A stretch of 25,547 nucleotides of DNA from a virus, in the IMG/VR virus record IMGVR_UViG_3300042385_001292, positions 1 to 25,547 of that record. One strand, given 5' to 3'. A model generated the notes under the pieces. It had not been told where the DNA came from. It searched no databases and was given only the letters and a program-made list of their open reading frames with translations. Below are positions 1,600 through 25,547 of this stretch, in pieces (positions within the stretch are counted from its first letter, which is position 1; each line of letters opens with the position of its first letter). A program made the translations under genes and the position numbers.

Positions 1600-1647
1600 G
1601 ATGAAACCTTTTGCGGATTACAAACAAACCCCACAAATGGGATGTGA

Positions 1648-2127: not shown

Positions 2128-2133
2128 AAACCA

Positions 2134-4991: not shown

Positions 4992-4995
4992 ACTG

Positions 4996-6175: not shown

Positions 6176-6181
6176 GGGAAG

Positions 6182-6210: not shown

Positions 6211-6242
6211 CAGGGAAATCAAAGAAAGATGAAGTTTTTTTG

Positions 6243-6334
6243 AGGGGTCAAAACCCTAGAAAACAAGGGTGGAAATAAGGAGGTCCAAACCCATTTTCCA
6301 AAAGTTCCGCCAAAAATGGAAAATGTGGCGGAAG
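6243..6334 (+). promoter_or_regulatory. Structured leader with interleaved inverted repeats
   Basis: Two stems compete or form a pseudoknot. CATTTTCCA (6292-6300) pairs with TGGAAAATG (6318-6326), while TTCCGCCA (6306-6313) pairs with TGGCGGAA (6327-6334). An AAGGAGGT at 6277-6284 matches a perfect Shine-Dalgarno site but has no close start codon; the nearest is ATG 6317, a 13-codon frame ending at 6358. The gap lies between divergent genes, so operator or attenuator roles are both possible. Confidence 0.35.
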
Positions 6335-6372
6335 AAATCATCTCTTTTTCCAACTAACCTCCAAGCCCGCCA

Positions 6373-6380
6373 TTTTGACA
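6373..6380 (+). promoter_or_regulatory. TTTTGACA start-proximal motif, copy 1
   Basis: TTTTGACA(C) ends 13 bases before the GTG start of the gpW-like gene at 6394. The following bases are close to those after copy 3 before the protease gene. Confidence 0.6.
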
Positions 6381-6393
6381 CCCGCCCGTCGGC

Positions 6394-6669
6394 GTGAGCG
6401 AATCCATGAAAATCAGCGGCGTGAAGTCCTACCTCCGCCGGACCAAGACCAACGAAGAGCTCGAGGCCTTGGCCGACACTGTTTTTTCCAGCGCCACCGA
6501 GGAAGTCGTCATCACCAGCATCGGCACCGAGGGCTCAAGCTCGTCCGGGCAGGTGAGTTTCCCCAAGTGGCTACTACTCCAAGCGATCGAAGAACTACTC
6601 ACCGACGGAGGCCGCGAGCGTCAGCTTGCCGCGATCATCGACCGCTCGCGCTACTCGTCACCGCTTTGA
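6394..6669 (+). CDS. Putative head-completion protein at the gpW position
   Basis: A 91-residue protein that begins with GTG, 13 bases after a TTTTGACA motif. In lambda the small head-completion protein gpW lies between the large terminase and the portal, and this gene has the same place next to the portal. The predicted order is helix (TNEELEALADTVFSSA), two strands (EVVITSIGTEG, SGQVSF) and helix (PKWLLLQAIEELLTDGGR), the alpha-beta-beta-alpha order of gpW. Sequence identity with lambda gpW is not obvious to me, so the call rests on synteny and secondary-structure pattern. gpW-like proteins plug the packaged head below the portal before tail joining. Confidence 0.5.
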   Translation: MSESMKISGVKSYLRRTKTNEELEALADTVFSSATEEVVITSIGTEGSSSSGQVSFPKWLLLQAIEELLTDGGRERQLAAIIDRSRYSSPL

Positions 6670-6677
6670 TTTTGACA
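6670..6677 (+). promoter_or_regulatory. TTTTGACA start-proximal motif, copy 2
   Basis: TTTTGACA(C) starts directly after the stop of the gpW-like gene and ends 14 bases before GTG 6692. It is the main reason for choosing that portal start. Confidence 0.6.
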
Positions 6678-6691
6678 CCCCGAAATCAATC

Positions 6692-8116: not shown

Positions 8117-8118
8117 AA

Positions 8119-8126
8119 TTTTGACA
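8119..8126 (+). promoter_or_regulatory. TTTTGACA start-proximal motif, copy 3
   Basis: TTTTGACA(C) ends 13 bases before the GTG start of the protease gene at 8140 and lies just after the portal stop. Confidence 0.6.
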
Positions 8127-8139
8127 CGCCCGCTGCGGC

Positions 8140-9261
8140 GTGAAGACCTGGTATGCCCTATCTGCCCGCGCTGAAGTTCGCCAAACCGAAATCTCCATCT
8201 TTGATGAGATCGGTTATTACGGCGTCAGCGCCAAGCAGTTCATCGGCGACCTCAAGCGCGTCCCTGCCGATCACGAGATCGTCCTCAAGATCCACAGCCC
8301 CGGCGGCGAAGTGTTCGATGGCAACGCGATCTTCAATGCGCTCAAGCGTCACCCCGGCGGCGTCACCGTCCAGATCGAAGGCCTAGCAGCCTCGATGGCC
8401 ACCGTCATCAGCCTTGCCGGTGCTCCGGTGAAGATGGCGGCGAATGGATTCTACATGATCCACAACCCGTGGGGAGTCGCGATGGGCGATGCCGACGAGA
8501 TGCGCGATCAAGCCGCACTCCTCGAGAAGATCCGCGAAGGCATGATCGCCGCCTACGCATCGAAGAGCGGTCAAGAGCCAGAGCAGATCGCCGCGTGGAT
8601 GGATGCCGAGACATGGTTCTCTGCCGAAGAAGCGCAGGCCGCTGGCTTCGTCGATGAAGTCACCGATTCACTCGCGCTCGCTGCCAGCGCCAACAAGTTT
8701 TCGCGCCTCGGAAAGTTCCGCAACGCGCCATCCGATTTGACAGCCCGGTCCGTGGATATGGACCAAGAAGTCAAACCCTCCGAAGAGGAAGTCGTCATCG
8801 CCCCCGCCGATGAGGCCATCGTCGAGCCTGCCGCTGCCGAAGAAGCACCCGTCGCCATCACCGAAGACGCAGTCATCGAAAGCGAAGGCAGCGAAGAAGA
8901 AGTTCAAGAAGAAGAAGCACCTGCACCTGCCGTGCCGGTCGCATCCGTGCCACACGCCGACGCGATCTTCGCCAAGTACAACGCCGTGCTCGCCCGCGCT
9001 GAAAAAGCCGAGAGCGATCTGACCGCAGTCAAAGCCGAGCTCGATGCAGAGCGCAGCGCACTCGCGAGCCTCGAGCGTTCGCTTGGCCTCGCCGCCGCAC
9101 GCGTCGTGCCGGTGATCGAAAATTCCGCGCCAGAAGTGAGCGACCCAGTCGCCGAGTACCTCGCCGCCGTTGAGGCAGGCGACCGCAAAGCCGCATCCGC
9201 GCTCTTCGAGTCGCACAAGGCCGCGATCTGGAAACACCGCGCATCCCTTTCGAAGGCGTGA
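8140..9261 (+). CDS. ClpP/S49-like prohead protease fused to scaffold (gpC-like)
   Basis: A 373-residue protein. Residues 18-180 form a ClpP-like serine protease: HSPGGEVFDGNAI (52-64), nucleophile Ser85 in GLAASMATVISLAG, and His108 in YMIHNPWG; the third triad residue is probably an Asp in the following helix. From about 207 the sequence becomes acidic (EEVVIAPADEAIVEPAAAEE, EEEVQEEEAPAPA) and then forms a coiled coil (AEKAESDLTAVKAELDAERS), as in a scaffold. In lambda, gpC carries the protease and its 3' part is also made alone as the scaffold Nu3. The GTG start is chosen because a TTTTGACA motif lies 13 bases upstream. It sits between portal and capsid genes, as expected. Confidence 0.88.
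   Translation: MKTWYALSARAEVRQTEISIFDEIGYYGVSAKQFIGDLKRVPADHEIVLKIHSPGGEVFDGNAIFNALKRHPGGVTVQIEGLAASMATVISLAGAPVKMAANGFYMIHNPWGVAMGDADEMRDQAALLEKIREGMIAAYASKSGQEPEQIAAWMDAETWFSAEEAQAAGFVDEVTDSLALAASANKFSRLGKFRNAPSDLTARSVDMDQEVKPSEEEVVIAPADEAIVEPAAAEEAPVAITEDAVIESEGSEEEVQEEEAPAPAVPVASVPHADAIFAKYNAVLARAEKAESDLTAVKAELDAERSALASLERSLGLAAARVVPVIENSAPEVSDPVAEYLAAVEAGDRKAASALFESHKAAIWKHRASLSKA
8736..8742 (+). promoter_or_regulatory. TTTGACA motif inside the protease gene, copy 4
   Basis: ATTTGACA lies within the protease coding region and ends 15 bases before an in-frame ATG at 8758. This matches the spacing seen before other genes and points to an internal start. Confidence 0.55.
8758..9261 (+). 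CDS. Predicted nested scaffold protein (Nu3-like), internal start in protease gene
   Basis: The ATG at 8758 is in frame with the protease gene (its residue 207) and would give a 167-residue protein that begins MDQEVKPSEEE. It contains only the acidic and coiled-coil part and ends at the same stop. An ATTTGACA motif stands 15 bases before it, as it does before separate genes; an in-frame GTG at 8752 is an alternative. The start falls exactly where the protease domain ends. In lambda, Nu3 is made this way from an internal start in gene C and serves as the internal scaffold for capsid assembly. Sequence position, motif and composition all agree, but no direct proof of expression is possible here. 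Confidence 0.6.
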   Translation: MDQEVKPSEEEVVIAPADEAIVEPAAAEEAPVAITEDAVIESEGSEEEVQEEEAPAPAVPVASVPHADAIFAKYNAVLARAEKAESDLTAVKAELDAERSALASLERSLGLAAARVVPVIENSAPEVSDPVAEYLAAVEAGDRKAASALFESHKAAIWKHRASLSKA

Positions 9262-9303
9262 GCCGGAGAGAACCACGAAACCAACCCCAAACACACCCCC
9301 GCA

Positions 9304-10161
9304 ATGCCTAACACATTCGACTCCTCCCTCGTTGCCGATTCCATCGCGCAACAAGCACAGACGGTTCTCAGCAACCGTCTCGCCGCCCTTAACCTTTTCG
9401 CCACCGACTTCTCGTCGGATGCCAAGAAGGCCAAGGACACCATCCAAGTCCCGATCGTTTCCGCGACCGGCGCGACTGTTGTCAACCCGACCAACTTTGA
9501 GCCCGGCGGCAGCGCCACCGTGGGCAAAGGCACCGTCACTCTCGACCACATCTTCCAACCTTTCGCGATCACCGCGGCTGAGTTGGCAAACGGCCACCGC
9601 CTTGAGCGCTTGATCCAAATCTCGCTCGACGCACTCGCCGATAAGATCTGGGCGCTCGCCACCACTCCGGTGACTGTTGCCAACTTCGGTGCCGCTGCTG
9701 TGACCAAGGCTGCCACCGGCATCACCGCCACCTCCGGCGATCTGCCAAAGGTCTGGGCCGCGATCAGCAAGAGCGCCCGCAAAGGCCTCGTCGTTTCCCC
9801 GACGATCTACTCGCAGCTGATCCCGACCAGCACGACCGCCATCAACCTCGGCGCCGGTGCTTACGGCTTCGACAACGGTGTCCACTACGCCAGCTCGTTC
9901 GGTGGTGAAACCAACATGATCGGTTTCGGCTGCTCGCCAGAAGCCCTTGTGATGGCCGCTGCCGCTCCCGCGATCGACGACGCAGTGCGCGCTCAGTTCG
10001 CAGTCAGCGATGTTGTCACCCTCGACCAACTCGGTCTCTCGGTGCAGTACAATGTCTGGGGCTCGACCGCCAACCGTCAGGTCAACGCTTCGCTCGAGCT
10101 TATGTTCGGCGCAGCCAAAGGCCTCACCGACGGCACCATGGCGATCATCAAGTCCGCCTAA
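9304..10161 (+). CDS. Major capsid protein
   Basis: A 285-residue protein that directly follows the protease/scaffold gene and precedes an intrinsic terminator. Features fit HK97-fold coat proteins of the shorter type: an N-terminal helix (LVADSIAQQAQTVLSNRLAA), an E-loop-like beta region (DTIQVPIVSATGATVVNPTN), a central spine helix (LERLIQISLDALADKIW), an alanine-rich A-domain (FGCSPEALVMAAAAPAID) and the C-terminal strand region (LSVQYNVWGSTANRQVNASL) typical of coat proteins. The scaffold is separate, so no long N-terminal delta domain is expected. The leader (42 bases) is A/C-rich with no Shine-Dalgarno site and no TTTTGACA motif. No separate gpD-like decoration gene is seen before it. 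Confidence 0.85.
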   Translation: MPNTFDSSLVADSIAQQAQTVLSNRLAALNLFATDFSSDAKKAKDTIQVPIVSATGATVVNPTNFEPGGSATVGKGTVTLDHIFQPFAITAAELANGHRLERLIQISLDALADKIWALATTPVTVANFGAAAVTKAATGITATSGDLPKVWAAISKSARKGLVVSPTIYSQLIPTSTTAINLGAGAYGFDNGVHYASSFGGETNMIGFGCSPEALVMAAAAPAIDDAVRAQFAVSDVVTLDQLGLSVQYNVWGSTANRQVNASLELMFGAAKGLTDGTMAIIKSA

Positions 10162-10187
10162 GGTTCGGATTCTCATCGGTAGCGTTC

Positions 10188-10228
10188 AACTCCCCATCGG
10201 CCAAGCGTCGGTGGGGAGTTCTTCTTTT
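10188..10228 (+). terminator. Intrinsic terminator after the major capsid gene
   Basis: AACTCCCCA (10188-10196) pairs perfectly with TGGGGAGTT (10212-10220) across a 15-base loop, followed by CTTCTTTT (10221-10228). Its T-run is shared with the TTTTGACA motif of the next gene. It probably lowers downstream transcription relative to capsid. Confidence 0.75.
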
Positions 10229-10232
10229 GACA
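10225..10232 (+). promoter_or_regulatory. TTTTGACA start-proximal motif, copy 5
   Basis: TTTTGACA(T) ends 16 bases before ATG 10249 and overlaps the T-run of the capsid terminator. Confidence 0.55.
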
Positions 10233-10248
10233 TGCACGCGCATTCAGA

Positions 10249-10578
10249 ATGACCCCTGCCGCGATCAACGCCTTCCGCCTCAAATCGGCGGCAGTACAAA
10301 ACGAGGCACACGGCGTCACGGTTCGTTTCCGAAATACCGACATCAAGGTGGTGATTTCCACCGTGCGCCTATCGCTCTCGCTCGAGCTTGGCGGCAATGC
10401 CCAGGGCGGTGAGTACACCGTGCGTTTTCTCGGTTCCACCCTCACCACCGCACCCACACGCGGCGAGCAACTCACCTTTGGTGGTCGCAAGTACACCATC
10501 ACCGAGGTCCGCGATGCCATCAGCACGCCGGGCGAGCATGTCGTGACGATTCACCCTGGCTCAATTTCCAACCTATGA
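10249..10578 (+). CDS. Putative head-tail joining (head completion) protein
   Basis: A 109-residue protein, almost all beta after an N-terminal helix (TPAAINAFRLKSAAVQNEAH). Strands such as GVTVRFRNTDIKVVISTVRL, EYTVRFLGSTLTTAP and KYTITEVRDAISTPGEHVVT fit the size and fold class of head-closure proteins such as lambda gpFII. The position between the capsid and the tail-terminator-like gene fits a connector role. No sequence motif proves it. The ATG is supported by the upstream TTTTGACA motif, and the stop overlaps the next start in an ATGA at 10575-10578, so the two are probably translated together. Confidence 0.55.
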   Translation: MTPAAINAFRLKSAAVQNEAHGVTVRFRNTDIKVVISTVRLSLSLELGGNAQGGEYTVRFLGSTLTTAPTRGEQLTFGGRKYTITEVRDAISTPGEHVVTIHPGSISNL

Positions 10579-10976
10579 ACCTTTTGATTGAGCAATCCGT
10601 GCGCGACTGGCTCGCCGACCTCGAGGCCTTCGAAGGCATCGCCATTCATTGCGGCCAGAGTGACGAAGAAATCCCCAACGATGCGCCGCTCATCATGGTC
10701 GCCTGCGAGGACATCAACGCACCGGCACCCACGCTCTACATCGCCACCGTGCGGCTGATCGTCAGCACGCCCTCCGTCATGGCCGATGCGCTCGCCGATC
10801 ACCGCAACCTTGTCGCGAGCCTGCGAGGCACCCTCAACGACGCCGAGGCCATGGCAGGCTTTTTTCCCGAAGGCATCAACTGCGCCGGCGCATCCATCAA
10901 CACATGGAATGAGTCGCAGAGCAATGACCGCTGGATGTCGCAAGTGAACCTCACACTTGGCATGGTGGAGAGCTAA
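10575..10976 (+). CDS. Putative tail completion/terminator protein (gpU position)
   Basis: A 133-residue alpha/beta protein. It begins with a helix (LIEQSVRDWLADLEAFEG), then strands (APLIMVACEDI, LYIATVRLIVSTPS), another helix (DALADHRNLVASLRGTLNDA) and a C-terminal strand (RWMSQVNLTLGMVES). This order is that of the gpU/gpZ-like tail terminator group, which caps the finished tail tube and docks it to the head. It lies between the head-joining gene and the tail tube gene, the expected position. It is coupled to the upstream gene by ATGA overlap. I rely on layout and fold pattern, not on a recognised motif. Confidence 0.55.
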   Translation: MNLLIEQSVRDWLADLEAFEGIAIHCGQSDEEIPNDAPLIMVACEDINAPAPTLYIATVRLIVSTPSVMADALADHRNLVASLRGTLNDAEAMAGFFPEGINCAGASINTWNESQSNDRWMSQVNLTLGMVES

Positions 10977-10989
10977 GCGCGCAACGCGA

Positions 10990-10996
10990 TTTGACA
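10990..10996 (+). promoter_or_regulatory. TTTGACA start-proximal motif, copy 6
   Basis: ATTTGACA(C) follows a small CGCG-CAA-CGCG hairpin (10978-10988). It lies 29 bases before ATG 11026, but only 8 before an in-frame GTG at 11005, so it is off the usual 13-16 base spacing either way. Confidence 0.45.
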
Positions 10997-11025
10997 CGCA
11001 GGCAGTGGGAGACCCCCACAATCCT

Positions 11026-11397
11026 ATGCCCGCCACCATCTACAAAGCATCGTCCGTCTCTTCCGTGGAGTTCGGCATCACCAACGAGACTGGCATCTTG
11101 CTCAGCTCGTTTTCGCGCAATGTCACCGCCAACAAGTCGGAGCTTCGCGACGCGGAAGGTGAAGTTGTCGCCGTCGCCATCACCGGTAAGCAAGCCGAGA
11201 TCACCCTCGAAGGAACCTTGAACGGCAGCGCCTCGATGCAAGTCGGCAACCTCCTCACGCTGTCCAACGATATCGACAAGTACGGCCTCGCAGACGGCAC
11301 CGTGATCGTCAACTCGGTCCAAGAGAAGTCCACCGCCGGGGAGTTCAAGACCATCTCGGTTAGCGCCACTCAGTACAGCGCATCGATGGACGACTAA
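11026..11397 (+). CDS. Major tail tube protein
   Basis: A 123-residue beta-rich protein. Segments such as SSVEFGITNETGILLSSFSR, GEVVAVAITGKQAEITLEGT and AGEFKTISVSATQYSASMDD fit the tail-tube fold shared with lambda gpV N-domain and Hcp. Family tube proteins range from about 120 residues upward, so this is a minimal tube protein with no extra Ig domain. A strong intrinsic terminator directly after the gene fits a highly expressed structural protein. I use ATG 11026; an in-frame GTG at 11005 would add seven residues and sit nearer the TTTGACA motif. The order terminator protein, tube, chaperones, tape measure is standard for long-tailed phages. Confidence 0.7.
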   Translation: MPATIYKASSVSSVEFGITNETGILLSSFSRNVTANKSELRDAEGEVVAVAITGKQAEITLEGTLNGSASMQVGNLLTLSNDIDKYGLADGTVIVNSVQEKSTAGEFKTISVSATQYSASMDD

Positions 11398-11422
11398 GCG
11401 CCCCGCGCCTCTACCCGCCGAC

Positions 11423-11454
11423 GGCTCCCCGGCTAATGGGAGCCAATTTTTTTT
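11423..11454 (+). terminator. Intrinsic terminator after the tail tube gene
   Basis: GGCTCCC (11423-11429) pairs with GGGAGCC (11438-11444) over an 8-base loop and is followed by AA and eight T residues (11447-11454). It is a textbook intrinsic terminator, seven bases before the next ATG. Confidence 0.85.
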
Positions 11455-11461
11455 ACAGATT

Positions 11462-11857
11462 ATGGACCACACAGAACTATTCCACACTAGCAACCTCAAG
11501 CTCGCTGCGACGCTCGCCACCCTTGGCTTTGATCCGCATGAAGCACCCGTCACGCGACAAGTCCGCAGCGACGGCAACGAGACCACCATCTTCTGGTTCA
11601 AGGCTTCACACCCGCACAACGGAGAGAGCGCCTTCGATGTTTTCCAGAAGTTCACCAAGCGTGCCGAGTTTTTCGCCGAGAGCGATCCCGAGCACCCGAT
11701 CAACTACATGCGCGCGGTCCTTCAGAACCGCGACGAGTTCATCGATCTGATCCGCAACACGCCGCGCGATGTCGTCATCGAGCGCAATGGCCGCCGCATC
11801 GCGATCCGCGAAACCGCCTCGGAAGAGACGAAGAAGAAGTTCGCAGCCCTTCTCTGA
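11462..11857 (+). CDS. Hypothetical tail-region protein
   Basis: A 131-residue protein between the tube gene and the tail chaperones. I do not recognise it. It begins MDHTELFHTSNLKLAATLAT and has an aromatic-rich middle (TIFWFKASHPHNG, VFQKFTKRAEFFAES) and a charged helical C-terminal part (DVVIERNGRRIAIRETASEE, TKKKFAALL). No membrane segment or signal peptide is visible. The start lies seven bases beyond the T-run of the tube terminator, so its mRNA must come from read-through or a promoter not seen here. A role in tube assembly is inferred from position only. Confidence 0.6.
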   Translation: MDHTELFHTSNLKLAATLATLGFDPHEAPVTRQVRSDGNETTIFWFKASHPHNGESAFDVFQKFTKRAEFFAESDPEHPINYMRAVLQNRDEFIDLIRNTPRDVVIERNGRRIAIRETASEETKKKFAALL

Positions 11858-11874
11858 ACCACACCCCAAAAAAT

Positions 11875-12291
11875 ATGCCAAAAAATACAAAAAACGAACT
11901 AGTAAAAGACGACGAAGTCCTGCGCGAAATCGGCTTCACCGAAGGCCCAAAGCAGGTATCAAAATTCACCATGCGACCAGTCACAGCGCTTTCGCTGTCG
12001 TGGCTGCAACGAAACAAGGTTTTCGATGGTGAGTTCTCCGACATGATGCAGAAGACTGCTGCCTACGCCTACCTGCACTGCGAGGACAAGGCGACGATCC
12101 GCAGCGTGGTCAATGACCCCCGCGAGTTCCTCGATGCCGTCGACGAGTGGATCGATGAGAACATCTCACACCACTCGCAACTCGAGCCGATCGCCCTGGA
12201 GATGAACGCGGCGCTCGAGACCTACATGGCAGCCACGACCACCGCAGCGCACCCGAGCACCGGCACAGGATCGAGCGGCTCAAAAAACTAG
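11875..12291 (+). CDS. Tail assembly chaperone, short product (gpG-like)
   Basis: A 138-residue protein. It starts with a basic segment (PKNTKNELVKDDEVLREIGF) and is mainly helical (TALSLSWLQRNKVF, FSDMMQKTAAYAYLHCEDKA, REFLDAVDEWIDENISHHSQ), with a flexible Thr/Ser/Gly tail. Size, position before the tape measure and the frameshift site at its very end match lambda gpG, a chaperone that coats the tape measure during tail assembly and is absent from the virion. The last codons before TAG are TCA AAA AAC, which make the slippery heptamer used for the longer product. The leader is A/C-rich without a Shine-Dalgarno site. Confidence 0.8.
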   Translation: MPKNTKNELVKDDEVLREIGFTEGPKQVSKFTMRPVTALSLSWLQRNKVFDGEFSDMMQKTAAYAYLHCEDKATIRSVVNDPREFLDAVDEWIDENISHHSQLEPIALEMNAALETYMAATTTAAHPSTGTGSSGSKN

Positions 12292-12515
12292 CCTCGCCCA
12301 GTTGGATTGCCAGCTATGTCCAGCACATCGCTGGCATGACCGGCTGGGCCTTCCGAGAAATCATGGAAGAACTGCCATTTTCCGCAGGCCTTCAGCTCAT
12401 CGACGCCGACCTCAACTCAAAAGGCATCGAACGAGTCTATGTGAACACTCGGCCAGATTTTGACGCGCTGTCCTTAATAGACGAAGCATTCGACAAATTG
12501 AAGCCATGCCAATGA
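11875..12515 (+). CDS. Tail assembly chaperone, -1 frameshift fusion product (gpGT-like)
   Basis: Ribosomes slipping back one base at A AAA AAC (12282-12288) bypass the TAG at 12289-12291 and read on in the -1 frame to TGA 12513-12515. The fusion has about 213 residues; the added 75 residues (LASPSWIASYVQHIAGMTGW, AFREIMEELPFSAGLQLIDA...) have no good start codon at their beginning and form an unbroken frame that otherwise would fill an unexplained 200-base gap. In lambda the same -1 shift joins G and T; gpGT recruits tube subunits to the tape measure. The coordinates should be read as join(11875..12288, 12288..12515). The shift direction, heptamer and position all match the known mechanism. 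Confidence 0.85.
12282..12288 (+). promoter_or_regulatory. Programmed -1 frameshift slippery site A AAA AAC
   Basis: The heptamer is in phase with the gpG-like frame (X XXY YYZ) and directly precedes its TAG stop. A possible stimulatory stem, TGCCAGC (12308-12314) with GCTGGCA (12330-12336), begins 20 bases downstream, rather far but perfect over 7 bp. Confidence 0.8.
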
Positions 12516-13354
12516 CCATCGAGGCCACCAATCTTGAGGATATACTCAAGGCGTACAGCGCTTTGACTGGCAAAGGTCTTGCTCAAATCACAAGGGCTCA
12601 CGCTCGGCTTTGTGCTGTCGAACTAGCTAACCGAACCCAACCTTGGACCAGCAAAAACAGCAAAGGCCCAGATGTGCTTGCTAAGGTCTCAAAGACCGTC
12701 ACCAAAGATGTGAAAAAGGTGGTCAAGGCTAAGGATGATTTTGAAAGCTACATTCACGGAGCTATTCAAGATGACAAGATCAAACAGCGCCTATTGAAAG
12801 TCGCTAAGGATAACAGATACGACATTCTCTCCAAGATCATGTTCAACTGCGGCCTGATCACCAGCGAGGACAAACTCCAGCAAATCACTGGAAACAGTCA
12901 ACACAAGGAGACGCACATCAAGCATCGCGACAACAAGGGTCGAACATACATGCCGCGCGGGGCAAAGTACATCAGCCAAAACGGTCTTTCTACATACATT
13001 CAGCAAGTCATCAAGCGCATTGGCTACACCAAAAGCGGCTGGGCCGAATGCGCGCGCAGGATAGGTGGCCTCAGTGGTGACGGCGCACGCGGCATTCCGT
13101 CTTTCGCTAAACGCCAGCGTGGCAACAACTGGAATGTCGATGACAACGGGGCAAACATCGACAACCCCAATTTCGTCATGACTAACACCACCCCGTGGAT
13201 TCGCCGACTGCTGAGTGCCAATGATGAAAAAGACGCCATGCGCATCGCACGGGACAAGATGATCAAATCCATGCAACGAGCAATCAAAGAAGCAAAGCGC
13301 GGTGAATCTGCCGCCAAAAAATCAATCGCCAAGGAGGTGGCAGACGCGCAATGA
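12512..13354 (+). CDS. Hypothetical tail-region protein between chaperones and tape measure
   Basis: A protein of 280 residues that I do not recognise. ATG 12512 overlaps the frameshift-product stop in an ATGA; an ATG two codons earlier (12506) is also possible. The protein is basic and mostly helical (TNLEDILKAYSALTGKGLAQ, ITRAHARLCAVELANRTQPW, SKVSKT-like Lys-rich middle) with a C-terminal helix rich in Lys, Arg and Glu (DAMRIARDKMIKSMQRAIKE). The segment NTTPWIRRLLSANDEKDAMR precedes it. In lambda nothing lies between T and the tape measure, so this is an extra gene. Its base composition is lower in GC than its neighbours. A role in tail assembly is inferred from position; a nucleic-acid binding role cannot be excluded. 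Confidence 0.65.
   Translation: MTIEATNLEDILKAYSALTGKGLAQITRAHARLCAVELANRTQPWTSKNSKGPDVLAKVSKTVTKDVKKVVKAKDDFESYIHGAIQDDKIKQRLLKVAKDNRYDILSKIMFNCGLITSEDKLQQITGNSQHKETHIKHRDNKGRTYMPRGAKYISQNGLSTYIQQVIKRIGYTKSGWAECARRIGGLSGDGARGIPSFAKRQRGNNWNVDDNGANIDNPNFVMTNTTPWIRRLLSANDEKDAMRIARDKMIKSMQRAIKEAKRGESAAKKSIAKEVADAQ
13331..13339 (+). promoter_or_regulatory. Shine-Dalgarno site of the tape measure gene
   Basis: AAGGAGGTG lies 11 bases before ATG 13351, inside the preceding gene. It is the only near-perfect Shine-Dalgarno site I see properly placed before a gene here, so it stands out. Confidence 0.55.
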
Positions 13355-15492
13355 GTGATGTGACCGTAACATTCGGGGCAAAGGACAATGGCGTCGAATC
13401 GACGATCGTCAAAATCAAAGGCAGTCTCAACAATCTCGAAAAAAGCACCCAGCAAGCCAGCGGCAGCTTCGATGGCGGATTCAAGAAAATGGCTATCGCC
13501 GGAGGTGCAGCGGGTCTTGCAATCGGCGCAGGCATGAAAGTCATTGGTGCTGCCACGGATGCAGCGAGGGCGGTGGTCAATCGCTTCGGCGATGCTCTCG
13601 AGCTCGGTGGCAGGCTCAATGATTTAAGCAGCCGCACCGGCGAGACCGCAGGCAAGTTGCTGGTGCTCGAGCGCGCATTCGACAACACAGGCGTCGGAGC
13701 CGACAAGGTCGGATCGACCATCAACCGCTTGCAGAAGTTCATCACCACTGCGGGCGATGAATCGAGCAAGCAGGCAGAGGTCATGGCTCGCCTTGGAATC
13801 TCGATGCAAGATTTGCAAGGCAAGACGCCGACTGAGCAAATGCAGGTCTTTGCCACCAAGATTGCTGGCATTCAAGATCCCACGGTTCGGGCCGCGACAG
13901 CGATGGAGATTTTCGGCAAGTCCGGCGGCCAGTTGCTGCCGATGCTGTCCAACTTTTCGTCTGAGATCAACGGCGCCAAAGGTCAGCTCGGCAGCTTGCC
14001 AGGCATCATGGACCGCAGCGCCGCCGCCTTCGACGCGATAGGCGACAATTTCGCGGCCATCAAAAACAAGTCACTTGAGTTCGCCGTAGGACTTGCGGAA
14101 AAACTAACCCCTGCGCTCGAAAAGTTCACCAACATGCTCGTCGGCGTGGACGCTGCAAGCTGGGGTGCTCAACTCGGGCAGCAGATCATCAAGATTTCAG
14201 ACTTACTGATCGGCGCATTCAAAGCACCGATGACGGCGGTCGATGCGCTTGGCTCAGCGCTGTATGCTCACATCGCCACGATGGGGAATCTTTACATCAA
14301 CTCACTCATCAACGGCGCAAACTTTCTCAAGGAATTTTGGTCATCCGACCTCCCGAAATTACTCATCGGCCAACTCGGCAGCGCGCTGATCAAAGGCTTT
14401 GCCGATGGCCTCAAGTTCTTTGTCGATAACATCGGCCAGGTCATCATCAACTTCAAAGAGTTTTTCGGGCGCGCCATCGAGTCGATCGCCACATTCTTCA
14501 GCAACACCTTCAACAAGATCGTCAACTTCTTCGCGAACGACTTCAAGAACGCGATGGAGAACCCGGTCGACTTCATCCGTGGCAAGCTCGGGTCCGCCCT
14601 ATCGGCTGCAACCAAGGACGGCAGCTTTACCTTCAAGGATGCCTACGACAGCGCCAGCGGCAGCGTGATTGACCGCATGTCCAAAGGCCTCGGCGCAGTC
14701 TCCGACGAGTACGGACAAAAGCTCAAGGATGGCACTGGCAGGATCGACGAAGAATGGAAGAAGATCACCGGCAATATTGAATTTTCAGCCCGCGACTTTT
14801 TCGGTGCCGAGGGAGCATCACAACGGGTCAAAGACAAGCTCGGCGAGCTCGAGAAGACCGGGCAAAACTTCCGTGAGCAACTCACCGGAGCAACCGGTGG
14901 AGCTAAGAGCGACACGACCGGCATCAAGGGCGATCTCGAAGACGGCGCCGGTGCAATGACTCAAGCCGCAGCCAAAGTCAAAGAAGCCCTCACCATGTCC
15001 CAGCAGATCACCGAGGACATCAACAAGGCCGAGAAGGAGAACGACATCGACAAGGGCGGGAAGAAGAAGGAGAAAATCGACGACCTAGTCGATCAAGGAA
15101 AGTTTGATGCAGCCCGTCGAGAAAACGAGAAAATCGCCAACAAGGAGCGCGATCAAGAAATGCGCGGCGTCGGCAAAGACAAAGACAACCGCTCGGTCAA
15201 AGACATTGCCAAGGACGAAGGCATCGACACCTTCCGCAAAAACAACAAAGAACTCCGCGATGAGATCATGAAGAAGCGCGAGGACGAGAAAAAGAAGGCA
15301 GCCGAAAAGAAAGCCGCCGATGAAGGAAAAAAACGCAACGACGAAATGAAGCCGGGAAATGAAGGCAAAAAGGACACGCCGAAGGATCAAGGCAAGGATT
15401 CGATTGCGTCACTTGCAAGCGCGGTGCAATCGATTGCGAACACCGTTCAAGCCATCAGCAACAAACTCCCGCAGTCAGCCCTCGGATACTAA
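13351..15492 (+). CDS. Tail tape measure protein
   Basis: A 713-residue protein. The start overlaps the previous stop in an ATGA. Residues 1-45 lead into a Gly/Ala hydrophobic stretch (47-68, MAIAGGAAGLAIGAGMKVIG). The region 85-220 has the typical tape measure pattern (LNDLSSRTGETAGKLLVLER, STINRLQKFITTAG, AATAMEIFGKSGGQLLPMLS). Several hydrophobic helices follow at 290-390 (LYINSLINGANFLKEFW, GQVIINFKEFFGRAIESIAT). The C-terminal 200 residues are strongly charged, Lys/Asp/Glu rich, and end in a helix (IASLASAVQSIANTVQAISN). The protein sets tail length; by the usual rule of about 0.15 nm per residue a tail of roughly 100 nm is expected. Long tape measure plus gpG/GT chaperones indicate a long non-contractile tail, since no sheath gene is present. 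Confidence 0.93.
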   Translation: MSDVTVTFGAKDNGVESTIVKIKGSLNNLEKSTQQASGSFDGGFKKMAIAGGAAGLAIGAGMKVIGAATDAARAVVNRFGDALELGGRLNDLSSRTGETAGKLLVLERAFDNTGVGADKVGSTINRLQKFITTAGDESSKQAEVMARLGISMQDLQGKTPTEQMQVFATKIAGIQDPTVRAATAMEIFGKSGGQLLPMLSNFSSEINGAKGQLGSLPGIMDRSAAAFDAIGDNFAAIKNKSLEFAVGLAEKLTPALEKFTNMLVGVDAASWGAQLGQQIIKISDLLIGAFKAPMTAVDALGSALYAHIATMGNLYINSLINGANFLKEFWSSDLPKLLIGQLGSALIKGFADGLKFFVDNIGQVIINFKEFFGRAIESIATFFSNTFNKIVNFFANDFKNAMENPVDFIRGKLGSALSAATKDGSFTFKDAYDSASGSVIDRMSKGLGAVSDEYGQKLKDGTGRIDEEWKKITGNIEFSARDFFGAEGASQRVKDKLGELEKTGQNFREQLTGATGGAKSDTTGIKGDLEDGAGAMTQAAAKVKEALTMSQQITEDINKAEKENDIDKGGKKKEKIDDLVDQGKFDAARRENEKIANKERDQEMRGVGKDKDNRSVKDIAKDEGIDTFRKNNKELRDEIMKKREDEKKKAAEKKAADEGKKRNDEMKPGNEGKKDTPKDQGKDSIASLASAVQSIANTVQAISNKLPQSALGY

Positions 15493-15510
15493 CAATCACC
15501 ACATCACCAA

Positions 15511-16236
15511 ATGCCACAAATCATTTATGAAAAAAACGCAGGCGAATTGATCCCGCAAGGTGGTCGGTCAGTTTCAACATTTCCAAGCGGCCTCATTCGC
15601 GTTGATCAAACATTTATATGCTCTACACCTAACATTGCAACACATCGGGCTAATTTAAAAATTAAAGAAGATTTTCCCGGTGGGTTTGAACCGGCAATTG
15701 ATGGGTTATATATTTACCCGGAAGTTCAAGAAAACAGAAGGGGTGATGGATTTAGTGAATTGATTGCATCGGGTTATGGTAGAACTGCGGATACTTTGCA
15801 AAACATACGAAAGCAGGTATTTACTGGGACGGTACAAATGGCGTCCGGGGGGACTATTGGTGATATTCTGTTCAATGTAACGAACTTATTTTATAGTCGA
15901 AACATAATAAATGGATTTATTGCAATAAAAGATGGGGACTCATTAAGTGTCGAAGATCTTGGTTTAGATGATCAATTATTTGTTCCGTTTAATCTTATTA
16001 ACACAGATAATAATTATGAAATAGTTATCACATACATTGAATTTAATTACAAAAGCCTAAATTACATTGATTGGAATGGTGATTTAAGGACTAGATATTA
16101 CAGCAAAATTAATTTTTACAACACGCGATGGGGATCAGGAATTTCATACAGTTTTCCTTGGGCAAGTCCTGTCATAAAAGTAATCAATAGCCAAAATTTC
16201 GGAGTATTTAAAGAATTAGAAATTTCAGTTAGTTAA
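15511..16236 (+). CDS. AT-rich tail-region protein of unknown function
   Basis: A 241-residue protein directly after the tape measure, where distal tail proteins usually lie. I do not recognise the sequence. It is beta-rich with many aromatic and Asn residues (PGGFEPAIDGLYIYPEVQEN, GFIAIKDGDSLSVEDLGLDD, YEIVITYIEFNYKSLNYIDW, SFPWASPVIKVINSQNFGVF), as expected for an exposed virion protein. Its DNA is strikingly AT-rich: bases 15901-15960 contain only 18 G or C of 60, against 41 of 60 at 7321-7380 in the portal gene. This suggests recent acquisition from a different source. The gene has an A/C-rich leader and ATG start. A distal tail or adsorption role is inferred from position. Confidence 0.7.
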   Translation: MPQIIYEKNAGELIPQGGRSVSTFPSGLIRVDQTFICSTPNIATHRANLKIKEDFPGGFEPAIDGLYIYPEVQENRRGDGFSELIASGYGRTADTLQNIRKQVFTGTVQMASGGTIGDILFNVTNLFYSRNIINGFIAIKDGDSLSVEDLGLDDQLFVPFNLINTDNNYEIVITYIEFNYKSLNYIDWNGDLRTRYYSKINFYNTRWGSGISYSFPWASPVIKVINSQNFGVFKELEISVS

Positions 16237-16237
16237 A

Positions 16238-16504
16238 ATGAAACTTCCAATTGATTTCAAAGAAAAGGTAACAAATCCGCCAAGCCCAAATGGCAAAGGT
16301 TACCCATACCGAATTTCTGCATTTGATTTGATGAGGAATTTCTCATATGCAGCATTGGATGCGAATGAGGGTTGGATCGAGGACAAAACCGAAGGAATGT
16401 ATGAAGGAAGGAAATTGAAGCTTCCAGAAATCCCAACATCCGGCACGCATGTGCTCGGCTGCATCGACGGTGAAATCCAATGGATCGGAACGGAATCCTG
16501 TTAA
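16238..16504 (+). CDS. Hypothetical small protein in AT-rich tail segment
   Basis: An 88-residue protein that begins MKLPIDFKEKVTNPPSPNGK and contains GYPYRISAFDLMRNFSYAAL, GWIEDKTEGMYEGRKLKLPE and the C-terminal stretch THVLGCIDGEIQWIGTESC. The ending resembles the short beta hairpins with a terminal Trp seen in small tail accessory proteins (DGEIQW-like), but I cannot name a family. It starts two bases after the previous stop and is followed four bases on by the next gene, so the three are surely one unit. Base composition rises from AT-rich to normal within the gene, near 16440, which may mark the end of the imported segment. Confidence 0.6.
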   Translation: MKLPIDFKEKVTNPPSPNGKGYPYRISAFDLMRNFSYAALDANEGWIEDKTEGMYEGRKLKLPEIPTSGTHVLGCIDGEIQWIGTESC

Positions 16505-16507
16505 TCT

Positions 16508-17143
16508 ATGGCTACGATCAAATACAACGAGGACGAGCAGGGGAACAAGAAGGTGATCATTTCGGTTGTCGGCAGCGAAACCAAGGTTAGTTGCGAATGC
16601 TGCTCCTCATGTCTTGCTTATCCTGCTTACCCAGTTGAGGTTGGAAACGATGAGAATGGCAATCCGACATTTGACCAATGGACTGCCGATTCAGCGAACC
16701 TTCCTGACTCAATCAATTTCTTTGGCACTACGCTGTCTAAGAGCGGCACGAGTTACGGCAACACAACCAATGGCGTTTTTCTTGAGGGTGAAAAGTGGGC
16801 GGTTTACCGCAACGGAGTAAGAACCGAAAAAGACCATTTGATTTCGGGCGGAATCAAAGATTTGTTTTTGGATGAATATACAGCGACTTGGCCGAAATCC
16901 GAAACCGAAAACTATACCGTCACCATGGTTCGCTTTGATAACTGCACTTGGGATGCTCCATTCATTGCGGATGGGTGCGGTGCTGGTGGTGCTAAATTAG
17001 AAATCAGCGATCTTGGATGGAGTTTTTCTGCTATCTCGCTAACCTCAGGTGGCGGCCCATGTTATGGATATGGAGATGGAAAATACCCAGACTACCCGCA
17101 AAATGACCCAACTGGAACATGGAATGAGGTTACCATTTCATGA
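16508..17143 (+). CDS. Hypothetical virion-region protein with Cys cluster
   Basis: A 211-residue protein. It starts with strands (ATIKYNEDEQGNKKVIISVV) and then a Cys cluster, CECCSSC, at about residues 29-35. The rest is beta-rich and aromatic (AVYRNGVRTEKDHLISGGIK, DLFLDEYTATWPKSETENYT, VTMVRFDNCTWDAPF) with a Gly-rich end (TSGGGPCYGYGDGKYPDYPQ). Further Cys residues at FDNC, DGC and GPC could pair with the cluster to bind metal or form disulfides in the virion. I do not recognise the family. The stop overlaps the next start in an ATGA (17140-17143). Position suggests a tail or baseplate accessory protein. Confidence 0.6.
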   Translation: MATIKYNEDEQGNKKVIISVVGSETKVSCECCSSCLAYPAYPVEVGNDENGNPTFDQWTADSANLPDSINFFGTTLSKSGTSYGNTTNGVFLEGEKWAVYRNGVRTEKDHLISGGIKDLFLDEYTATWPKSETENYTVTMVRFDNCTWDAPFIADGCGAGGAKLEISDLGWSFSAISLTSGGGPCYGYGDGKYPDYPQNDPTGTWNEVTIS

Positions 17144-17487
17144 TCTGCCCCCATCAGTCCCGAGCCGCAGACCGAGGGCAATACACCTGCGCGATCGGCA
17201 AGCATGGCGGCAAGCCGTGGCCGGGGCAATGTGCTGCCTGTCTCAACCCGGAACTGAGCACCGGGCAAATGATGGCAAACCTCGGCTCATCGATTGCTAA
17301 ATTTGCCCGATCTGGCTTCACCACCACCGATACCGACACGCTCGCCAGCCGCATGGATACCTGCAAAGCCTGCGACCTGTGGGACGCTGCCGGCATGGCA
17401 GGCACCGGACGCTGCCGCAAGTGCGGATGTTCGACGCAGGCAAAGCTGCGAATGGCCTCGGAAAAATGCCCGATCGGCAAGTGGTGA
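17140..17487 (+). CDS. Cys-rich zinc-ribbon-like phage protein
   Basis: A 115-residue protein with ten Cys residues, at 3, 17, 31, 34, 75, 78, 92, 95, 97 and 110. The C-terminal part, MDTCKACDLWD...GRCRKCGCSTQAKLRM...EKCPIGKW, matches from memory a widespread small phage family that ends in KCPxGKW and lies near tail fibre genes (possibly DUF6171). The spacing CxxC...CxxCxC...C is that of a structural zinc site. The N-terminal part (CPHQSR...YTCAIGKHGGKPWPGQC, AAC) may hold a second one. Function is unknown in all cases I know. It is coupled to the preceding gene by ATGA overlap and followed by a TTTTGACA motif. Confidence 0.65.
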   Translation: MICPHQSRAADRGQYTCAIGKHGGKPWPGQCAACLNPELSTGQMMANLGSSIAKFARSGFTTTDTDTLASRMDTCKACDLWDAAGMAGTGRCRKCGCSTQAKLRMASEKCPIGKW

Positions 17488-17489
17488 GA

Positions 17490-17497
17490 TTTTGACA
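17490..17497 (+). promoter_or_regulatory. TTTTGACA start-proximal motif, copy 7
   Basis: TTTTGACA(C) begins just after the stop of the Cys-rich gene and ends 16 bases before ATG 17514. Confidence 0.6.
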
Positions 17498-17513
17498 CAA
17501 ACCCAGCATTGCA

Positions 17514-18377
17514 ATGAATATCACCAACGCACGCGCCACAGTAGGCTTGTCTTCCAAGGCCTCGCCAACTTCGACCAACACGAGTGGGTCAGTTCAAATC
17601 GGTCAGAATAACGAAACCCTGTCCTTTCCAACCGCTGATGTAGCATTCACGCTCCAAGCGTTTTTCGCAGGAGCAAATGGTGTGCTTGCATTGAATCCCT
17701 TCACAGGCTCGACCGCTGGCTCTACGACTTGGGTCGCTGGTGCTCCGCAGGTTGAAACCGCAACCGCAGCCGGGGCCGCAACCGCATCATCCAACGCTAA
17801 TCTTGTTGTGACTGCGGCGGGGATGACCGGTTCACCCAAAACGATTTCGGTTCCGCTCCTTAGTGGCGACACCGCTTCCGTCTGCGCTGAAAAATTCCGC
17901 GCGGCCTTGGCCAATGATGCTGCTGTTTCCGGTTTGTTTACTGTCAGCGGCACGGGGACATCGGTAGTTCTTACCCGGAATCCAGTCAAAATACTGCAAA
18001 GTGATGGCGTTTCGGTTCCGCTTTATACAACATCGGATGCCACATTGAACATCGCGATCAACGCTGGAACAACTGGCATTACTGCGGCTGCCTCTTCCGC
18101 AAACACGATTGCCGGTACTCTTTCGAGTGGGGTGCTCATCTATGATGGCGATGGCCGCGACTTTGAAGGCACCACCCTCCCAACACTCACGACAATCAGC
18201 GCCCAGTTGTTCAAAACAATCGAATCCAACTTTGTTGTCGATGGTAGCGGCGATGACTTGTTTAGCATCTTTGGAAATGGCTCCTATCTCTTTGCACCAG
18301 GGCTTAACGAGGCGAGCTACACATTCACATCAAGCGCTGCTGGGGCTTTGCAAATTACAATCGTCGGCGTCGACTAA
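17514..18377 (+). CDS. Putative virion structural protein, beta-rich
   Basis: A 287-residue protein, very rich in Ala, Thr, Ser and Gly with few charged residues, like fibre or decoration proteins. Segments such as ADVAFTLQAFFAGANGVLAL, TAAGMTGSPKTISVPLLSGD, SVVLTRNPVKILQSDGV and ASYTFTSSAAGALQITIVGV suggest beta-sandwich domains. A middle section (AGAATASSNANLVVTAAGMT) recalls repeated Ig-like modules. No enzymatic motif is visible. The ATG at 17514 follows a TTTTGACA motif by 16 bases. It stands alone between two such motifs, so it may be regulated as a separate unit. A minor tail or capsid-surface role is inferred from composition and place only. Confidence 0.6.
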   Translation: MNITNARATVGLSSKASPTSTNTSGSVQIGQNNETLSFPTADVAFTLQAFFAGANGVLALNPFTGSTAGSTTWVAGAPQVETATAAGAATASSNANLVVTAAGMTGSPKTISVPLLSGDTASVCAEKFRAALANDAAVSGLFTVSGTGTSVVLTRNPVKILQSDGVSVPLYTTSDATLNIAINAGTTGITAAASSANTIAGTLSSGVLIYDGDGRDFEGTTLPTLTTISAQLFKTIESNFVVDGSGDDLFSIFGNGSYLFAPGLNEASYTFTSSAAGALQITIVGVD

Positions 18378-18415
18378 GTGCCGATTGATGGATAGTCGCC
18401 AGTTCGTCTGGCAAA

Positions 18416-18422
18416 TTTGACA
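18416..18422 (+). promoter_or_regulatory. TTTGACA start-proximal motif, copy 8
   Basis: ATTTGACA(T) follows a GCCAG-TTCGT-CTGGC hairpin (18398-18412) and ends 14 bases before ATG 18437. An upstream ATG at 18422 overlaps the motif itself and is therefore less likely to be used. Confidence 0.5.
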
Positions 18423-18450
18423 TGGTGCCGGGCTTGATGCCCGGCACCAT
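18422..18450 (+). promoter_or_regulatory. Perfect 12-bp hairpin over the start codon
   Basis: ATGGTGCCGGGC (18422-18433) and GCCCGGCACCAT (18439-18450) pair perfectly with a 5-base loop, TTGAT. The likely start codon at 18437 spans loop and stem. No T-run follows, so control of translation is more plausible than termination. Confidence 0.6.
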
Positions 18451-18754
18451 CACATTATCGCAAGGCGAGCGGCTTTCCTTGCTCGCGACTGCCAAGCAAA
18501 ACGGCACAGCGATCACGCTCGATTCGTCGTGGTTGGTCGGTGCCGCTATCATGCCCAATGGTCAGTCATCGCCGGTCGACATGGCCGCGTCGATTGTCCT
18601 GGGAAAAGTCTCGATCGACTTCGACACCGCCGATCTCAAGCCCGGCACGCATGTCATGGACATCCGCTTCACGAATCCCGAGAGCCGCGACCAATGGAGT
18701 CAAACGATCAAGGTCGTAATCGATCGCACCGTCACCCCTTACAGCCCCCGCTGA
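18437..18754 (+). CDS. Hypothetical beta-rich tail-region protein
   Basis: A 105-residue protein if it starts at ATG 18437 (MPGTITLSQGERLSLLATAK). The frame also allows ATG 18422, five residues longer, but that codon overlaps the TTTGACA motif. The sequence (LSQGERLSLLATAKQNGTAI, KVSIDFDTADLKPGTHVMDI, RFTNPESRDQWSQTIKVVID) has the pattern of small all-beta phage proteins that precede fibre genes, in which a D-F-D-T...G...MDIRF segment leads to a final strand ending in RxVTPYSPR. I know no proven function; adaptor or fibre-base roles are possible. The start codon lies in a strong hairpin, so expression may be controlled at translation. Confidence 0.6.
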   Translation: MPGTITLSQGERLSLLATAKQNGTAITLDSSWLVGAAIMPNGQSSPVDMAASIVLGKVSIDFDTADLKPGTHVMDIRFTNPESRDQWSQTIKVVIDRTVTPYSPR

Positions 18755-18760
18755 CAAGCC

Positions 18761-19069
18761 ATGCCCATCAACGAAATCGACATCGTCCAAACTCCAAGCG
18801 GCCAGCTCGTCACCGAGATCGAGCTTCAGCAAGGCCTGCCGGGTCCACCGAACACGCTCGCGATCGGCAGCGTCACTTCTGGCAACGCACCATCGGCGAC
18901 CATCACCGGCTCGGCGCCACAGCAGACGCTCAACCTCGTCCTTCAACGCGGCCCCGGCAGATACACTTTCAGCCTCTCCGATGCAGACCTGCTCGTCCAC
19001 TACGACGACGACATCCCGCCCAGCCTCTCGATCAACACCTCCGGGGATTTGATACTCGACCTTAATTAA
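18761..19069 (+). CDS. Short fibre protein with one collagen-like/fibre repeat
   Basis: A 102-residue protein. After a short N-terminus (PINEIDIVQTPSGQLVTEIE) it has one copy of a repeat that recurs in the next gene: GLPGPPNTLAIGSVTSGN, then PSATITGSAPQQTLNLVLQR and G. A beta-rich end follows (FSLSDADLLVHYDDDIPPSL, SINTSGDLILDLN). The GxPGPP triplets and the NTLxIGxVTxG...QTLNLxLxRG unit are common in tail fibres of many phages. It may be a fibre base or adaptor that co-assembles with the 265-residue fibre through like repeats. It starts six bases after the previous gene. Confidence 0.65.
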   Translation: MPINEIDIVQTPSGQLVTEIELQQGLPGPPNTLAIGSVTSGNAPSATITGSAPQQTLNLVLQRGPGRYTFSLSDADLLVHYDDDIPPSLSINTSGDLILDLN

Positions 19070-24049: not shown

Positions 24050-25135
24050 TCACCCGCTTTTCATCCGTTTCTTTTTATCATCGCACAGCCCGAAATAAAC
24101 CAACCCATCGGCCAGCGTCACCGCCCGCCGGTAGTGCCGGAAGAGCGTCGAACTTCCAGCGGTGTGTCCGAGGCTTGATTTCGTGCGTTCTTCATTGGTC
24201 GCCGCGAGCATGTGACTCGCAAACGAATGCCGAAGAATGTCCTGCTCGCCAGCGATGCCCGCCGCCTTCCGTATCCGCTGCCATGACCGCCGCCACCCCG
24301 CAGGTAGCACCGGCCCCTCGGCAGGATGACCATCGATCTCCGCCCGCAACCTCGGCGTCAGCGGAATGTGCCGATCGCTACCGGTCTTCGAGGTCGCTGG
24401 CGCGATGTAGATTTCCTGCGCGCCCACAGCCTCCCAGTCGAGGCGCGCGATCTCTCCGCTCTCCGCATCCGGGCGGATGCCAGCAAAAGCCAAGAGTGCC
24501 ATCACACGGCGCTCCTCGACCGACTGGCAATGACCGAGCACCGCCTCGACCTCCGCCAAGGTGAGGATCTTGATCTCGGTGCTTTTCCGGTGACGCTCGC
24601 GGTAGTGAAGAACCGCTAGCACCCGCGTCGCCCTGGCATCGATCGTCGAGCGAGCCAATGGCTGATCCTGCACAAGCGCCGCCTCGACAACCGCGCGGTC
24701 GATCGTCCCGCAGGGGAGGGATAGGAACTTCTTCGGCAGCCACCGCAGGAGCCGATCCATGTCCTGCCGGTAGCGTTTCGACCAGCGAGTACTACCATTG
24801 GCCACTGCGCGGTGGTACCTCTCCTCAAATGTCTCCGAACCGCCAGTCTGCGAGAGTTGTTTGACCACCACCCTTACGGCCTCAAGCAGCGAAAGACCGG
24901 TCGGGGCGAGCAATTCGACCGCAATCGCTGCGTCTGCCGCGAGGTTGGCGCTGATTGCTCTATTGCGAAAACCGGAGTCATATTGGTTGCGCAGAGATGC
25001 GGCGAATTTTTTGGCCTCCGATATCGTTCGGAAAAATTTCCGATGGCGCTTTCCATCATTTGAGAGAGTGGCTGGAATTGAAACGCGCACCCCTTCCGGC
25101 GTCTCTTTTGGGATGATGGATGGTCGTCTTGGCAT
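24050..25135 (-). CDS. int: Tyrosine-type site-specific integrase
   Basis: A 361-residue tyrosine recombinase that integrates and excises the phage at a tRNA gene. The N-terminal 60 residues form an arm-binding-like domain (MPRRPSIIPKETPEGVRVSI, KFFRTISEAKKFAASLRNQY). A core-binding domain follows at about 80-180. The catalytic domain has Arg221 (AGIRPDAE), Lys250 (TSKTGSDR), Arg302 in DILRHSF, His324 (SLGHTAGSS) and the nucleophile Tyr335 (FRHYRR). The first position of the usual HxLRH box is Asp299, not His, a tolerated but less common change. It is transcribed away from the attachment region, next to a tRNA-Thr fragment. The upstream promoter overlaps an arm-like repeat, which would allow self-repression. 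Confidence 0.93.
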   Translation of the reverse strand: MPRRPSIIPKETPEGVRVSIPATLSNDGKRHRKFFRTISEAKKFAASLRNQYDSGFRNRAISANLAADAAIAVELLAPTGLSLLEAVRVVVKQLSQTGGSETFEERYHRAVANGSTRWSKRYRQDMDRLLRWLPKKFLSLPCGTIDRAVVEAALVQDQPLARSTIDARATRVLAVLHYRERHRKSTEIKILTLAEVEAVLGHCQSVEERRVMALLAFAGIRPDAESGEIARLDWEAVGAQEIYIAPATSKTGSDRHIPLTPRLRAEIDGHPAEGPVLPAGWRRSWQRIRKAAGIAGEQDILRHSFASHMLAATNEERTKSSLGHTAGSSTLFRHYRRAVTLADGLVYFGLCDDKKKRMKSG

Positions 25136-25146
25136 TTATTGATTCC

Positions 25147-25175
25147 AATTTACTGCCCAATATCTGCCTAATCAA
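25147..25175 (-). promoter_or_regulatory. Predicted integrase promoter overlapping an arm-like repeat
   Basis: On the minus strand TTGATT (25175-25170) and TAAATT (25152-25147) are 17 bases apart, ending 11 bases before the integrase ATG. The spacer is almost exactly the repeat 25152-25168, so an integrase or excisionase bound there would block RNA polymerase. Confidence 0.45.
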
Positions 25176-25362
25176 ATGTTAAAACTGGCAACAATCGTAG
25201 GCTTTTAGCAACTAGGCGTTCTTGGAAAACCTAGGAAACATCTAGAAAACTGGAGCCGCTGGTCGGATTTGAACCGACGACCTGCTCATTACGAATGATT
25301 TACCTAGAGAAAAAAACCTAGGTTTTATCAGGAAAACCTTGGAAAAACTGCCCAATCCTGCC
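25152..25362. other. Phage attachment region (attP) with flanking arm-like repeats
   Basis: ACTGCCCAAT with a trailing CTGCC occurs at 25152-25168 and 25347-25362, on either side of the tRNA-like core. A second repeat type, GGAAAACCTAGG, is at 25224-25235, with related CCTAGGTTTT at 25317-25326 and GGAAAACCTTGG at 25331-25342; the last two form an AGGTTTT/AAAACCT hairpin. This is the layout of core and arm sites in tyrosine integrase attP regions. Confidence 0.65.
25251..25298 (-). tRNA. 3' part of a tRNA-Thr (anticodon CGT), attachment core; not a complete gene
   Basis: Reading the minus strand: anticodon loop TTCGTAA, stem TGAGC, variable loop AGGTC, T stem GTCGG with loop TTCAAAT and CCGAC, acceptor strand CAGCGGC, discriminator T and encoded CCA. 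The 5' acceptor strand, D arm and most of the 5' anticodon stem are missing: the bases upstream of the loop (AATCA) match only in the last three. This is the part a phage carries so that integration rebuilds a working tRNA. Confidence 0.75.
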
Positions 25363-25418
25363 GCATCGACCAAAAAGTTGCCCAAAATCGAAAAAGCATT
25401 TTTGCCAAAAACACTATT

Positions 25419-25547
25419 TCACTTCTTCGATTTCATCTCGGCCTCGATCTGCTCGATCACCAGTCCAAGGTGATGCGCAGACCAGTTCGCCATGGTGCGA
25501 TTTTCACGAGCCGCCGCCTTTCGGATGCGTTCCTTAAGGGCTTTGGG
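25419..25547 (-). CDS. Ribbon-helix-helix-like (Arc/CopG type) protein, partial
   Basis: The window ends inside this gene; the last 42 residues are visible and end at TGA (25421-25419). They read PKALKERIRKAAARENRTMA, NWSAHHLGLVIEQIEAEMKS, KK. The pattern of a basic helix, ENRTMANW turn and a second amphipathic helix is typical of Arc-like ribbon-helix-helix proteins, which act as small phage repressors. It is transcribed leftward toward the attachment region. Its start and the N-terminal strand lie outside the window. It may be part of the lysogeny control region, which is otherwise not visible here. Confidence 0.55.
   Translation of the reverse strand, partial: PKALKERIRKAAARENRTMANWSAHHLGLVIEQIEAEMKSKK

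Follow-up and report, generated by a model that had tools for sequence, protein, structure and literature searches.

The 3' half of a tRNA-Thr(CGT) gene as probable attachment site of a non-integrated temperate phage of Verrucomicrobiales

Half of a tRNA gene standing a short distance ahead of a phage integrase gene raises the question of whether the phage DNA was sequenced inside or outside its host chromosome, and which host that would be. The locus belongs to IMG/VR virus record IMGVR_UViG_3300042385_001292, which is classed as linear and was analyzed in its entirety (25,547 nt; hereafter the window). We are highly confident that it is an attP, sequenced in non-integrated form, and that it belongs to a temperate tailed phage of Verrucomicrobiales, which probably integrates at the anticodon loop of tRNA-Thr(CGT) and would restore that tRNA. 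The features of the locus, in window positions, are:

24050-25135, minus strand: tyrosine integrase of 361 aa whose ATG start is separated from the core by 115 nt (PF00589, 3.9e-7; PHROG integrase, 4e-19; catalytic region conserved in the family alignment).
25152-25173, minus strand: P' arm immediately ahead of the integrase start, with TTGGGCA and TTAGGCA as tandem arm-type repeats; relative G011:C38 has the same pair.
25226-25235, no strand assigned: AAAACCTAGG, left half of an inverted repeat bracketing the core, from a repeat search.
25251-25298, minus strand: attP core, a tRNA-Thr(CGT) 3' half that opens with the last bases of the 5' anticodon stem (TCA), continues through the anticodon loop and finishes at CCA; it is recognized by host identity and the absence of a 5' half.
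25287-25295, minus strand: TTCGTAATG, the anticodon loop and two stem bases, probable crossover (overlap) region, common to 3'-half attP sites and the 5'-half element in G029:C36.
25317-25326, no strand assigned: CCTAGGTTTT, right half of the inverted repeat, from the same search.
25347-25387, minus strand: P arm, arm-type repeats ATTGGGCAGT, GGCAG, and TTGGGCAA; the same motif occurs in G011:C38.
25416-25547, minus strand: phage gene truncated by the record end, of which the 3' part (42 residues, ...IEQIEAEMKSKK) remains; it lies within window positions 24092-25547, which align to G011:C38.

The first-pass annotation had placed only the 3' half of tRNA-Thr at 25251-25298, and these coordinates are exact. 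Read on the minus strand from 25298 to 25251, the core (TCATTCGTAATGAGCAGGTCGTCGGTTCAAATCCGACCAGCGGCTCCA) is identical to the host tRNA-Thr(CGT) at 48 of 48 positions, with identity running for 48-50 nt in all 22 complete host loci compared. The host gene consists of GCCGCTGTAGCTCAGGGGTAGAGCAGC followed by the 48 nt of the core, so that the match takes in the final three bases of the 5' anticodon stem before entering the loop. The core is present as a single copy and the tRNA 5' half is absent from the window, where a 5' half beside a second core had been looked for; ARAGORN found no tRNA in the window, and the Rfam tRNA model scored the core at 18.7 bits, under the cut-off of 29, with a weak tRNA-like match extending into the flank. 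An exact search of viral contigs with a 45-nt core gave eight matches, and a 49-nt query consisting of this core and four further 5' bases gave none.

A weak Rfam score reaching into the flank would suit a stray tRNA fragment, such as a tRNA-derived RNA gene, that serves as no attachment site at all. We give this reading almost no credence: in the relatives measured, the half-tRNA lies 80-116 nt ahead of the integrase start, it begins at the anticodon loop every time, and arm repeats flank it; in addition, a coordinated T-stem variant (GAGAG/CTCTC) is found in two phages. That variant occurs in the cores at L002:5871-5915 and G011:C38:31320-31364, one of which also has TGTGC in the anticodon stem. 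No host tRNA with the variant was found among 387 genomes of the order, and these cores point to hosts with a different tRNA-Thr(CGT) sequence.

To name the host, bacterial tRNA-Thr(CGT) genes with an identical ending were sought, as the first-pass annotation had advised, and they were found in Verrucomicrobiales. Scanning genome contigs with the 45-nt core returned 23 identical stretches, 22 of them complete tRNA-Thr(CGT) genes and all 23 named Verrucomicrobia or their genera (Luteolibacter, Haloferula, Akkermansiaceae, Verrucomicrobiaceae, and Prosthecobacter bins). The host is therefore likely to belong to Verrucomicrobiales, and is named to order or family level only because many genera share the very same tRNA 3' half. 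Two candidates for a prophage of this phage were rejected: in RDZR01000066 (L022) the bases after the tRNA resemble the phage arm but no integrase is found there, and JAGWXY010000017 (G011:C45:4111-10010) holds a 5.9-kb element with another integrase (31% identity). The latter element has a complete tRNA-Thr(CGT) at one end and a displaced core at the other, its integrase adjoining the displaced copy. In a further genome, two tRNA-Thr core copies lie 100 kb apart (G279:C1:5336163 and 5436474) and may delimit a large genomic island at the same tRNA gene.

Ten relatives with this integrase form with the window a group of 11 records; nine are IMG/VR contigs, and the tenth, G011:C38, is a contig from a Verrucomicrobia bin. 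In all ten, a single half-tRNA precedes the integrase and the 5' half is missing; the half-tRNA begins at the anticodon loop each time and lies 80-116 nt from the integrase start in the records measured. No tRNA gene was found in the window or in the relatives' loci L002-L010. Exact terminal repeats in G005 (127 bp), G008 (123 bp), G010 (99 bp), and G011:C38 (94 bp) indicate circular assemblies in which the attachment site is flanked by phage genes on either side. A related integrase outside this set (L120, G417:C354) is preceded by the 3' half of tRNA-Asn(GTT) with no 5' half, an attP-like site at another tRNA.

The circular relatives also bear on what lies to the right of the core. Positions 30163-31618 of G011:C38 align in one piece with window 24092-25547 (77%), across both core and right flank, and this collinearity with a circular relative identifies the right flank of the window as phage DNA. 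The remaining relatives have different right flanks, likewise without a tRNA and with phage genes, and the earlier view that this DNA is not of host origin is borne out by G011:C38 and by the phage genes of circular G005, G008, and G010. An integrated prophage in which decay or replacement had made the host tRNA 5' half unrecognizable could draw on the shortness of the window's right flank, just 249 bases whose gene has no family match, but it is contradicted by the collinearity over the whole attP and by the differing, equally tRNA-less flanks of the other phages, and we regard it as extremely improbable. The statement that a phage-like gene follows the core holds in part: the gene is conserved in place in the circular relative, but what the window retains is a 42-residue C-terminal fragment with no Pfam or PHROG match. 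Half-tRNA without a 5' half and phage flanks in circular relatives together uphold the proposal that the genome was sequenced in the non-integrated form.

In the window itself, neither a terminal repeat nor an overlap of the two ends was found, whereas four relatives have repeats of 94-127 bp. Comparison with G005 and G011:C38 indicates that about 6 kb of early genes is missing between its right and left ends, and the circularity of the window is for these reasons deduced from its relatives. G005, which is 99.3% identical to window 707-18876, runs past the attachment site into RusA, YqaJ, and other early genes leading to the window's left end; in G011:C38 the missing stretch holds RecT and an HTH_17 protein. 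An ATP-dependent DNA ligase gene (PF01068, 4.7e-9) lies on the minus strand at 5192-6175 of the window, on the opposite strand between the terminase and portal genes. The terminase is of the GpA kind (PF05876, 4e-63), which in lambda-like phages cuts at cos. By this analogy, the closed assemblies of the relatives would be intracellular circles or concatemers rather than virions. Of the suggestion of a circular or virion genome, the non-integrated configuration and the circularity of relatives stand, but the window's own ends carry no repeat and a virion is not distinguished.

Virion DNA, an excised or replicating circle, and the junction between tandem prophages would all read alike. Under Campbell-type integration, an attL or attR that takes up a second phage leaves an attP between the copies, so that the inner junction of a head-to-tail double prophage would show an attP-type site and yield self-closing assemblies compatible with those observed. 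Tandem lysogens should sometimes yield host junctions or complete tRNAs, however, and none of the 11 group records has either; we consider this origin unlikely.

Non-integrated phage DNA is also what comparison with integrated elements favors. The first-pass annotation had reasoned that the integrase-side junction of a prophage should show a complete tRNA, and this is the arrangement in diverged integrated relatives: L081 and L119 have a complete tRNA-Thr(CGT) followed directly by the integrase (46-48% identity), L079/L080 have tRNA-Thr(TGT) before it, and L085 has tRNA-Asn(GTT). The integrases of these integrated examples are at most 48% identical to that of the window, and no integrated copy of the same subfamily (>70% integrase identity) was found in overlapping sets of 387 and 260 genomes. 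When junctions were constructed in silico, ARAGORN called tRNA-Thr(CGT) in attL (host 5' flank plus window core) and no tRNA in attP or attR.

Two kinds of site delimit the crossover. At 3'-half sites, the stretch shared with the host opens at TTCGTAATG or as many as three bases earlier, the TTCG start being common to the attP of the relatives, and in the 5'-half-type element of G029:C36 the integrase-side identity ends after TTCGTAATG. These limits agree, and argue, as suggested earlier, for a crossover near the anticodon loop, probably within TTCGTAA, the exact cuts being deduced from sequence comparison. The G029:C36 element (47733-56118; L082, L083) is 8.3 kb long, has an integrase 40% identical to that of the window, and seems to carry the 5' half of tRNA-Thr(CGT), with the host 5' half and TTCGTAATG at the integrase side and a complete tRNA at the far side; it represents the rarer 5'-fragment class within the same integrase family.

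Arm-like repeats had been reported on both sides of the core, and they are present: ACTGCCCAAT occurs at 25152 and 25347 and TTGCCCAA at 25378. Tandem repeats spaced 9-12 nt apart lie on one side roughly 60-90 nt ahead of the core and on the other directly in front of the integrase start. Their motif varies by phage, being TTGGGCA in the window and G011:C38, TGGTGGC in L002, AGGTCC(A) in L004 (degenerate in the L006 group), and GTGGCAC in G010. Dinucleotide shuffles reached the paired-repeat pattern in 0 of 300 cases for G011:C38, L004, and G010, 2 for L002, 16 for the window, and 19 for L006; the repeats of the window taken alone are thus marginal and near chance, and the same motif in the same place in G011:C38 was never matched. 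This paired-site test was stronger than the longest single repeat common to both arms, which was not significant for most phages singly. The inverted repeat AAAACCTAGG/CCTAGGTTTT is a possible accessory-protein site, and CTAGG adjoining the core recurs in several relatives.

The integrase appears to be of the lambda type, with a predicted arm-binding N-terminal domain followed by core-binding and catalytic domains. Its PF00589 match covers part of the domain only; R, K, R, H, and Y are visible in the family alignment, and the first H of HxxR is replaced by D (QDILRH) throughout the family. In the proposed mechanism, the integrase would bind the tandem repeats flanking the core, and strand exchange with the host tRNA-Thr(CGT) gene would occur in the anticodon loop. 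At attL, the junction on the integrase side, the host 5' half would be completed by joining to the phage 3' half, and the 3' half that had belonged to the host would move to the far end (attR). Because attL would be completed in this way, the tRNA would survive integration.

Such a system is of a known kind and largely ordinary, a landing sequence that leaves the tRNA gene unbroken on insertion. Islander lists 2083 anticodon-centered islands, and 3760 islands with a 3' tDNA fragment against 159 with a 5' fragment (PMC4383910), counts that make the window's type of site the usual one. Its class A shares with the window a tyrosine integrase, a tRNA 3' half in attP, gene restoration upon integration and, probably, an anticodon-loop crossover (PMC4383910); there is no difference in principle, the window's site being the tRNA-Thr(CGT) of Verrucomicrobiales. 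A literature search returned no paper whose title or abstract describes such an attachment site in Verrucomicrobiales hosts. As in KplE1/HK620-type phages, where attL overlaps the integrase promoter (PMC2951348), the window integrase gene points away from the core, with no more than about 20 nt separating its start codon from the P' arm repeats, a proximity through which the integrase could repress its own gene. Unlike that system, the window has no identified promoter (neither a sigma-70-like promoter nor a terminator was found near the core), and an excisionase is not assigned with certainty. Mycobacteriophages with tRNA-dependent lysogeny, e.g., Fionnbharth, also target a tRNA gene, but combine a core of about 10 bp with a whole phage-supplied tRNA (PMC10865867), whereas the 48-bp core of the window restores the tRNA itself in silico and no replacement tRNA occurs in the window or L002-L010.

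The least ordinary feature, and one worth specialist attention, is an apparent exchange of the arm-recognition module. The window integrase is 96-98% identical to those of L002 and L004 over residues 116-200 and 47-50% identical over residues 1-115, and all DNA alignments of the window with seven relatives stop at 24784-24788. With G011:C38, which has the same arm motif, integrase identity is 88% over residues 1-60 and 74-77% from residue 61 on. The N-terminal alignment rejects a window, L002, and L004 clade (p-AU 6e-54), and the C-terminal alignment groups the window with L002 (support 92/88); the expectation that the C-terminal tree would also reject the window with G011:C38 failed (p-AU 0.27). 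Across window 24784-25135 and the corresponding parts of L002, L004, L006, and G011:C38, the arm repeats vary in step with residues 1-115, whereas residues 116-361 are conserved, as is the tRNA target. On balance we favor the view that residues ~1-115 and the arm sites have been swapped as one module among phages that keep a single tRNA target, giving different and perhaps incompatible arm sequences. The arm-binding role assigned here to the N-terminal domain is by analogy with the lambda and KplE1 integrases, for which it is known (PMC2951348).

Through its attachment site, an uncultivated phage group gains a likely host order, and its records are shown to be in non-integrated form. If the module exchange is real, differing arms might avoid excision by a co-resident or superinfecting relative. 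The attP sites, which combine a single target with at least four arm motifs, constitute a natural experiment on the separate recognition of arm and core by integrases.
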